A stretch of DNA of 52,060 bases from Chloroflexota bacterium (GTDB taxonomy: Bacteria > Chloroflexota > Ktedonobacteria > Ktedonobacterales > JACDGC01). A program made the position numbers and the translations under genes. The stretch spans positions 1 through 52,060 of the forward strand of contig JAJYBV010000010.1 in the NCBI GenBank assembly GCA_021778805.1, in the 5' to 3' direction. Shown here piece after piece: positions 21,541-25,022 of this stretch; the first letter of the stretch is position 1; each line of letters opens with the position of its first letter. The notes beneath the pieces are model-generated. The model ran no database searches. It was not told the origin of the DNA and was given only the letters and a program-made list of their open reading frames with translations.

Positions 21541-21938
21541 AAGAGCCAGGGATTCGTAAGGGGCGACAGCCCATTGCGCGGGGTTTGGGGCGCCTCCCAA
21601 AATCATCTTTTTATTTTATTTTTCCAAAGCAGTATTGTTTGCCAAGTAGCAAGGGCGACCGCAAGGGTCGCCCCTACCGGATTGCATTGCCTCATGTGTA
21701 CCGCGCGATGATTATATTAAAACAAGTGTCATATGGCGGCGCTGGTGCTACGGTGCGGCGTAGGTGGCCGGGCCGCGCTTGTGTACCGTGCAGTGTAGAT
21801 AGCCGAGTGGCGCTTGTGCTCCGGCGCGGTGTAGATAGCAGGGTGGCGCATGTGTACCGCGCGGTGTAGTTTGCCGGGTGGCGTAGGTTGCCGAGTGGCG
21901 CTTCCGCTTCGGCGCGCCGTAGGTGGCCGGGTGGCGCT
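21541..21938 (+). repeat. Dispersed repeat, copy C
   Basis: Contains all family modules in plus orientation: GGGATTCGTAAGGGGCGACAGCCC, GCGCGGGGTTTGGGGCGCC, GGGCGACCGCAAGGGTCGCCC, CTACCGGATTGCATTGCCTCATG and the GGCGC...GGTGTAG tail. The tail is amplified (see the separate tandem repeat). It lies between the ABC exporter promoter region and the toxin/immunity patch, and no protein is encoded. Confidence 0.85.
21738..21938 (+). repeat. 36-bp tandem repeat, about five units
   Basis: Units such as GGCGCTTGTGCTCCGGCGCG-GTGTAGATAGCAGGGT follow each other with period 35-36 and about 15-25% divergence, with one partial unit near 21868. Other copies of the dispersed repeat carry only one such unit, so the array arose by local amplification. 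There are no unique spacers, so this is not a CRISPR. Confidence 0.8.
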
Positions 21939-21980
21939 ATATATGTATTATCAACAAAACATCGCTATTTTTATACACCT

Positions 21981-22811
21981 TCACGGATTACAAATAACAT
22001 CTTTGGAATAATCACTATTAGTTGAATTATAATTAGTATACTCCATCCCTTTTGTTGTTGGTCTCTTTAAATTGTGCTCTTCAAAATAAATACCATAAAG
22101 GTCTAAATAGTTGCTATATCCTGTCCAACAATCTAAATGAATATAGGTAAAATAATAGCTTTGAGATTTTGAGAAATTTGGAACAAGCCAATAAACTCCC
22201 TGCCAGTGTGTGTCATCTTGATATGTTATTGTAAAATAAATATCTGCAAATAACACATATCCTGCTCCTGTTCCTCCATGATGATAGATATGTATCTTTT
22301 GAATTTGTATCGATTGTACCTTTCGTGTATTCGCGCATTGTACGGTTTGCCCTATACTCGGAACTCGCACTTGTTCCAAAATATCAGTAGCGTCGGAAGA
22401 TGTTGGCTGCGCACAGGGTATTGTTCCATATACCATGGTATAATCGTGGAAATATTGTAGCAATGTGTCTTCAGGTCGGCTATTCAGCAAACCCGGTCCC
22501 GGTGGCCCCTGTTGCGGTGTATAGGTATATCCGCCATTGAATAGTCCCCACGCAGGGTTAGGAATATTATGATCTGTATTTTGCTGCACATAATAGACTA
22601 TAGACATCACATTCTCAGATCGCGCCAAAAATGACCAACTGAGAAGGTGAATTGGCTTTTCTGTATCCCTTTGCAATCTTTCTCTTGGTGCGGTTTTTAT
22701 TTGTGACCTCTATAGTGATCCACAGGCTGCTACCCATATCACAAGAATTGTTATCCCTATCATGCAACCAATTCGTACATAATTCTTTGATTTGCTCATC
22801 GGCTTTTTCAT
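21981..22811 (-). pseudogene. Putative immunity lipoprotein gene interrupted by an in-frame TAG
   Basis: From ATG 22811, behind the strong site GGAGGAGAGAGGAATC, the frame encodes a lipoprotein signal (MKKPMSKSKNYVRIGCM, then ITILVIWVAACGSL with lipobox VAAC). It meets TAG at 22710-22712 (codon 34). Reading continues in the same frame without further stops into the 231-aa track ORF, ending at 21981, for 276 codons in all. The mature part (YYVQQNTDHNIPNPAWGLF ... CNP) matches no family I know and is rich in aromatic residues with four Cys. It starts 21 nt after the hydrolase toxin gene. A surface lipoprotein next to a lipase-like toxin is what an immunity protein would look like; function is inferred. 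Confidence 0.6.
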
Positions 22812-22832
22812 GATTCCTCTCTCCTCCACATA

Positions 22833-23840
22833 TTACAAAGTTGCTGCTACCATATTTTGTAACGACTGATCTGGATTCGTTTCCAATTGCACATGCGCAC
22901 CATATATCGGATCGCCTGGTGTCCAGCCCACATACGTTTGCCATGCGCCTGACAGTGGCCCACTATTCATATCTTGCCCATTATATGCATAGACTCCCTG
23001 GATTCCATTGGCTTGTATAAATTCCGATGCGGCTCCTGCGTCAAAATTTGGACTGCCTTGCTGCCATATCATTTTTGCTGCTTCATATGTTAATCCAAGC
23101 CCTAATCCCACGATCATACCACCAACCGGATCGCCTGTTGCCATGCCAATACTCAATCCAGCAGCAGCTCCCATCATGGGAGCCATATATCCAAACGCTG
23201 GCGCATCCAGCAATACAAAGTTGTTCACATGCGCGTCATTGGTTGGTGTTGATTCTTCATTGGCAAAATACCGCAATATGGCAGACGCTCCATTGCTATG
23301 CCCTACCAACCCCACTGTGCCGACATATCCTTCTCCATGCAAATCATGCAGCGTTGCTTGTATCTGCGCTGCTCCTTGCGGAGAATCTGGCGCTTCCATA
23401 AAAATAAACCCTACATCACCGTTATATTTTGTATTATAAAAACTTTCCCATGCTAGCCAAATTTTTTTCTGTGTAGCAAATGAATCTTCGGTTTTGTTAA
23501 GGTTAGGCGTGTTATCCGCATTTAATACATTTGGCCCATCAATAAAGATTACACAATGGGCATAGCCGCTGCAAGTATCAGCGGTTGTTCCAAAATTACT
23601 AACTGTTGGCGCACTATTTCCAGTAGTATCTTTATTAGAATTATACGGGTCATGACCACGGTGACAAATACCATCCGCCCCAGCACAATGCCCGCTGGGG
23701 TCGGTGAGCGTTTCGGGATTGCCGCCCACATAGGCGTAGCGATTCGGCCCCTGCGCCGTGTCTGCGCTGATAAATTGCCCGATGCTTCCATCATAATACC
23801 GCGCATGTTGGAAGAAACTTGTACCGCTTGCTTTACAACA
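22833..23840 (-). CDS. Rhs C-terminal fragment with alpha/beta-hydrolase (lipase-like) toxin domain
   Basis: The open frame from 23840 begins with the end of an Rhs core (ARYYDGSIGQFISADTAQG, NRYAYVGGNPETLTDPSGH), the hallmark just before a polymorphic toxin tip. The tip has VGLVGHSNGASAILRYF (nucleophile elbow, Ser), VLLDAPAFG (Asp) and YGAHVQLE (His near the end), which fits a serine esterase/lipase triad. A Gly-rich hydrophobic insert (MMGAAAGLSIGMATGDP...) could contact membrane. The track lists only the part after GTG 23729 (298 aa). No start codon with a ribosome site serves the Rhs part, and the rest of the Rhs gene is absent, so this is an orphan cassette. Target and activity are inferred. 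Confidence 0.68.
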   Translation of the reverse strand, partial: CCKASGTSFFQHARYYDGSIGQFISADTAQGPNRYAYVGGNPETLTDPSGHCAGADGICHRGHDPYNSNKDTTGNSAPTVSNFGTTADTCSGYAHCVIFIDGPNVLNADNTPNLNKTEDSFATQKKIWLAWESFYNTKYNGDVGFIFMEAPDSPQGAAQIQATLHDLHGEGYVGTVGLVGHSNGASAILRYFANEESTPTNDAHVNNFVLLDAPAFGYMAPMMGAAAGLSIGMATGDPVGGMIVGLGLGLTYEAAKMIWQQGSPNFDAGAASEFIQANGIQGVYAYNGQDMNSGPLSGAWQTYVGWTPGDPIYGAHVQLETNPDQSLQNMVAATL

Positions 23841-24209: not shown

Positions 24210-25022
24210 TTATCCTGCGCTGCTGTGTTTCGCCGGAGGAGGAAACGCTAACTCAAAGTTCGTTAATATGGATGTCAGCGGCTCTTCCAAGTAACCAATC
24301 GCACTGCTGCGCAGGTCATCCGGAACACCATAATACGCCTCGGCAATGCTGCCTGCAATAGCAGCCAAGGTGTCGCTGTCCCCTCCGATAGAGATGGCGT
24401 TGCGAATGGTGTCTTCAAAAGAATCTGCCTCTAAAAACGCTACAATAGCCTGTGGAACAGTGTTTTGGCAAGTTTCGCTGAACCTATAGGTTTCGCGGAT
24501 ACCATTCAAAGTGAAATTGATAGGATAATAATGCTTGCGAATATACCTTTGAATTTCGGATTTATCGACACCTGTGCGCGCCAAGTAAACACATATCGCG
24601 GTAGATTCAGCGCCTTTCAAGCCTTCTGAATGATTATGCGAAATAGCAGTAACAGCATTGGCTAAAAATTTCACTTCTTCCAAATCACGCGCTGCGTACC
24701 CGCAAGCAGAAACACGCATAGCCGCGCCGTTGCCATAGCTGTTATACGGCTGTGGGTTTCTGGTAAATAACCATTGAAAAAACATTCCGCCATAGCCGCA
24801 ATCGGGATATTCGCGCCCCAAATCTTGAATATTTTTTATTGCCGCCGCGCTCAAAGATTCATAATTTCCATCGCATTCCAAAATAGCCTGCGCAATGGCT
24901 AAGCTCATAACACTATCGTCAGTAAAAATATTTTTAGCGGTAAATAATTCAAATTGCTTGGTTTTTATGTTGTTTCGTTCAAAGCGAGAGCCAACAATAT
25001 CTCCAACTATAGCTCCGATCAT
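24210..25022 (-). CDS. ADP-ribosylglycohydrolase family protein
   Basis: Removes ADP-ribose from modified proteins or small molecules (DraG/ARH fold, two Mg ions). Metal and substrate motifs are visible: GAIVGDIVGSRFE (1-15), FTDDSVMSLAIA, ITAISHNHSEGLKGAE and SIGGDSDTLAAIAGSIAEAYYG. 270 aa, normal length. ATG 25022 is behind AAAGGAACGAAT. It lies 36 nt downstream of the histidine kinase on the same strand and could be read from that operon. Being next to toxin/immunity remnants, a role against ADP-ribosylating toxins is possible but only a guess. Confidence 0.93.
   Translation of the reverse strand: MIGAIVGDIVGSRFERNNIKTKQFELFTAKNIFTDDSVMSLAIAQAILECDGNYESLSAAAIKNIQDLGREYPDCGYGGMFFQWLFTRNPQPYNSYGNGAAMRVSACGYAARDLEEVKFLANAVTAISHNHSEGLKGAESTAICVYLARTGVDKSEIQRYIRKHYYPINFTLNGIRETYRFSETCQNTVPQAIVAFLEADSFEDTIRNAISIGGDSDTLAAIAGSIAEAYYGVPDDLRSSAIGYLEEPLTSILTNFELAFPPPAKHSSAG

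Follow-up and report, generated by a model that had tools for sequence, protein, structure and literature searches.

The window, a stretch of 52,060 nucleotides from a Ktedonobacterales-like MAG, probably carries on its minus strand a displaced and silent Rhs cassette in which a lipase-type toxin tip is followed by an immunity gene put out of action by a mobile element. The toxin frame comes first and the start of the second gene lies 21 nt past the toxin stop codon. Displaced Rhs tips are already known as a kind of cassette from many bacteria. An earlier note had read the coordinates, this spacing and the motifs GHSNGA, LLDAPAFG, a His in the C-terminal region, GGAGG and a lipobox, all of them correctly. 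The features are given below in minus-strand order; C91 and C92 are other contigs of the same genome, and G001 is a sister species.

22833–23840, minus strand: open frame of 335 aa, core end fused in frame to tip
23689–23807, minus strand: Rhs core end (HARYYDGSIGQFISADT...NPETLTDPSGH), 119 bp, matching TIGR03696 and 97.5% identical to C92
22836–23687, minus strand: tip domain of 284 aa, probably a lipase-type alpha/beta hydrolase, from weak Pfam, PDB, and hhalign matches
23289–23303, minus strand: GHSNG nucleophile-elbow motif with the candidate catalytic Ser, aligned with GHSLG of the L002 hydrolase
23199–23213, minus strand: LLDAP, strand following the elbow, aligned with TLDSP of the L002 hydrolase
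22971–22982, minus strand: NGQD, candidate catalytic acid, placed by position only
22893–22901, minus strand: GAH, candidate catalytic His, placed by position only
22823–22827, minus strand: GGAGG ribosome-binding site of the second gene, kept in the C91 paralogue
22710–22811, minus strand: 33-codon leader ORF opening the immunity gene, containing the lipobox VAAC and closed by TAG
22598–22715, no strand assigned: MITE-like dispersed element of 118 bp inside the immunity gene, with copies elsewhere and absent from the C91 paralogue
21981–22607, minus strand: immunity protein body, leaderless, 207 codons after the ATG, 79% identical to C91 and 62–63% to G001
21738–21939, no strand assigned: GC-rich degenerate repeats flanking the cassette, found likewise on either side of the C91 and C92 cassettes as the same repeats

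The toxin frame matches positions 33–76 of TIGR03696, the C-terminal half of the Rhs-associated core, at 44.1 bits (cut-off 32.5), and together with the openness of the frame, which none of 20,000 first-order Markov shuffles of equal composition retained, this match confirms that an Rhs core end is fused in frame to the tip. Upstream of the tip, no Rhs-derived DNA other than the core end is present, homology starting at 23807, and the frame has no recognizable start codon or export signal of its own. Identity to the C92 core extends over the full 119 bp up to DPSGH, with different DNA on both sides, and the tip that follows DPSGH differs from the tip on C92. This boundary supports the earlier description of the tip as orphan and swappable. 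The core end also sits in a local GC peak, with a GC3 of 0.66, against 0.35 for the tip and 0.29 for the immunity body. On C92 itself, the second orphan core is followed by its different tip and then by a DUF4279 gene; this cluster (L050, G000:C92, 631–4648) additionally has a PT-HINT/Ntox28 fragment that precedes the core end and is accompanied by its own downstream gene with a weak HEAT-repeat match.

These two core fragments are the only ones found in the 93%-complete genome, and neither a full-length Rhs gene nor any RHS_repeat match, that is, a YD-repeat body, was found in it. In relatives within the order, long Rhs frames do occur and are trailed by arrays of short core fragments, for example at positions 1779923–1786630 of contig C1 of G008 and on C71 of G005. 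The earlier note had proposed looking for an intact full-length Rhs gene with the same tip, and none was found in any genome searched; a search of viral and genome contigs, phages, and plasmids likewise gave no relative of the tip. The upstream neighbor of the orphan cassette is an ADP-ribosylglycohydrolase gene and not a main rhs gene; a position downstream of the main rhs gene is usual for orphan cassettes in Enterobacteriaceae, although it is not strictly required. This neighboring gene (24210–25022, minus strand) belongs to the ADP-ribosylglycohydrolase family by Pfam (E = 4e-32), and its NCBIfam match to Tri1 is far under the cut-off. A small frame-shifted ORF abutting the Rhs fragment (P0001, 23549–24034, minus strand) appeared antitoxin-like by eye, matched nothing in the libraries or genomes, and was set aside. 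GC-rich degenerate repeats of the CGGTGTAGTTTGCCGGGTGGCGCTTGTG type (window 21738–21939, L008, and L004) adjoin all three cassettes seen in the genome.

In the window assembly, the second gene is interrupted by the 118-bp insertion. Its leader frame reads MKKPMSKSKNYVRIGCMIGITILVIWVAACGSL-stop, with the C-terminal end VIWVAACGSL-stop and the lipobox IWVAAC, and the TAG that closes it falls at the edge of the dispersed element. The element ends in imperfect terminal inverted repeats, read from the sequence as CTATAGAGGTCACA and TGTGATGTCTATAG, and five further copies with 99–100% identity lie on contigs C77, C39, C136, C127, and C14 (G000). At least six near-identical copies thus exist including that of the window, all six starting and finishing with CTATAG, and we take the element to be a candidate IS630-type MITE. 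Past the stop, the leader frame continues into the immunity body. The element contributes an in-frame ATG at 22607, upstream of the immunity body, from which translation could yield a leaderless product of 208 residues; the 231-aa ORF reported by the ORF finder likewise starts inside the repeat and has no leader. With a mobile repeat dividing the gene, the intact surface immunity lipoprotein that had been proposed for the window is not supported. The lipobox VAAC with its Cys is detached from the body here and is present in the uninterrupted leader of C91, whereas the G001 homologue has a plain hydrophobic anchor without the lipobox Cys. Judged from these sequences, lipoprotein character is therefore not a conserved feature of the immunity family.

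The immunity body matches nothing in Pfam, NCBIfam, PHROG, PADLOC, or PDB, in agreement with the earlier view that the protein has no known family; the PHROGs and PADLOC searches returned nothing, and no relative was found in viral contigs and plasmids. A scan of the genome contigs with the immunity alignment matched only a contig of the sister species (G001; Chloroflexi bacterium isolate YF1.bin12). Contig C91 carries the uninterrupted paralogue, with a leader ending in VAAC, and directly upstream of it are the last six toxin codons and a stop codon. In G001 the homologue, on C201, follows a decayed fragment of the toxin domain. The linked second gene of the earlier note is therefore borne out, as its relatives also sit behind remnants of the same toxin. 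Pairwise dN/dS among the three bodies (window, C91, and G001) is 0.21–0.25, a value that is undated and says nothing on present use of the window copy. Linkage to the toxin or a toxin remnant thus holds at all three genus loci, and purifying selection has acted on the immunity body at some undated time in the past. Downstream of the immunity homologue on G001:C201 (L007, about 2110–2845), a frame resembling pretoxin-HINT together with a further tip would form a second cassette.

The strongest competing explanation is that both genes are dead remnants and that the cassette is plain genomic debris with no present function, which we consider to have a chance only slightly below even. The missing start and export signals of the toxin, the interrupted immunity gene, the failure to find a full-length Rhs gene in the genome, and the decay of the fragments in the sister species all fit this explanation. 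However, the toxin frame is wholly open with its motifs present, recombination can reactivate orphan tips (PMC3967940), and an uninterrupted immunity copy under purifying selection persists at C91.

The nature of the tip was addressed with several libraries. Pfam gave only two matches, LCAT (E = 0.0018; 18.0 bits against a curated cut-off of 21) and DUF915 (E = 0.0042; 16.9 bits against 22), both under the curated cut-offs. Searches against PDB sequences returned LCAT, a putative lipase, and group XV phospholipase A2 with E values of 0.04–0.95, one of these searches having used a two-row profile that includes the G028 hydrolase and thus not being independent of that protein. An hhalign comparison of the tip with three Chloroflexota alpha/beta hydrolases gave 76% over the stretch from GHSNG to LLDAP. 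The weak matches are all to alpha/beta hydrolases and all at the GHSNG region. We rejected the explanation that the GxSxG motif alone drives them, since none of nine shuffled sequences keeping GLVGHSNGA matched anything. Of the weak hits in G028 and G110, the former proved on inspection to be a stand-alone hydrolase, and the ORF list of the G110 locus contained no Rhs-like ORF. AlphaFold models of the tip and the immunity protein, built without a usable alignment, had pLDDT values of 33.1 and 34.0, respectively, and were unusable, and fold searches with them were empty. From these weak but concordant matches the tip is likely to have an alpha/beta-hydrolase fold and lipid is a plausible substrate, which lends moderate support to the lipase-type hydrolase proposed previously. 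It is nevertheless conceivable, if unlikely, that the cassette is real and its tip is not a lipase, being instead another alpha/beta hydrolase, for instance a peptidase, a thioesterase, or an acyltransferase, or a protein of another fold that has a GxSxG motif by chance. The subthreshold Pfam scores, a fold that no model confirms, and the assignment of Asp and His by position only leave room for such a tip, but in several libraries the same residues match lipase/LCAT-type hydrolases, and the shuffled controls match nothing.

That the second gene is instead an unrelated exported protein that came to lie behind the toxin by chance is improbable: a distant relative in G109, from another family of the phylum (E = 5.1e-6), has no adjoining toxin and sits beside genes that we named by eye as an aminoacyl-tRNA synthetase and a GNAT acetyltransferase, but the toxin linkage at all three genus loci stands against this explanation, and the gene order, the 21-nt spacing, and an outward anchor suit an immunity gene.

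Under the preferred reading of a displaced toxin/immunity cassette, recombination within the conserved core end would have separated the tip and immunity gene from a full-length Rhs gene; what remains is 119 bp of core, a tip with neither start nor export signal, and the immunity gene. Once rejoined by recombination to a full-length Rhs gene, the tip could be delivered to a neighboring cell, where it would probably hydrolyze an ester, most plausibly in a membrane lipid, by means of a Ser-His-acid triad. The adjoining gene would have encoded an outward-facing, membrane-anchored protein that neutralized the tip. In the present genome the cassette would be silent. The mobile element severs the immunity leader from the body, and copies of the immunity gene may have been retained where the toxin was lost.

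Dissociated Rhs tips in Enterobacteriaceae are marked by a GC peak and a core remnant (PMC2935791), and orphan tips of Salmonella have no signals for initiation or export and become active again when they recombine with the main rhs gene (PMC3967940). The window cassette resembles these orphan rhs-CT/rhsI modules (PMC2935791, PMC3967940) in its core-end fragment, DPSGH-type swap boundary, GC peak over the core, AT-richer tip, linked downstream gene, and lack of a translation start. It differs from them in its Ktedonobacterales-like host, in that a main rhs gene was not found, and in the interruption of the immunity gene by a mobile element. In the TslA/TilA system of Staphylococcus aureus, a phospholipase A toxin is neutralized by an immunity lipoprotein (PMC10730906). 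The resemblance to the window cassette is one of logic, a lipase-type toxin with an extracytoplasmic, membrane-anchored antidote; unlike the tip, TslA is a type VII substrate and has its lipase domain at the N terminus. The similarity of the tip to LCAT, group XV phospholipase A2, and DUF915 hydrolases is weak and lies at the nucleophile elbow and the next strand, whereas the scores are under the curated cut-offs and the remaining tip domain is unaligned.

These findings carry the pattern of displaced Rhs tips over to an uncultured Ktedonobacterales-like lineage and contribute a candidate pair of toxin and immunity families that databases do not name. More tentatively, and with somewhat less confidence than an even chance would warrant, we propose that the immunity proteins represent a new family of outward-facing, membrane-anchored antidotes to a new lipase-type Rhs tip of Ktedonobacterales, that such antidotes may be selected as stand-alone shields after their toxin decays, and that the silent toxin may persist with its own antidote disabled. 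The open toxin with a broken antidote in the window and the uninterrupted antidote without a toxin on C91 offer a natural case for testing whether orphan immunity genes persist because they protect.
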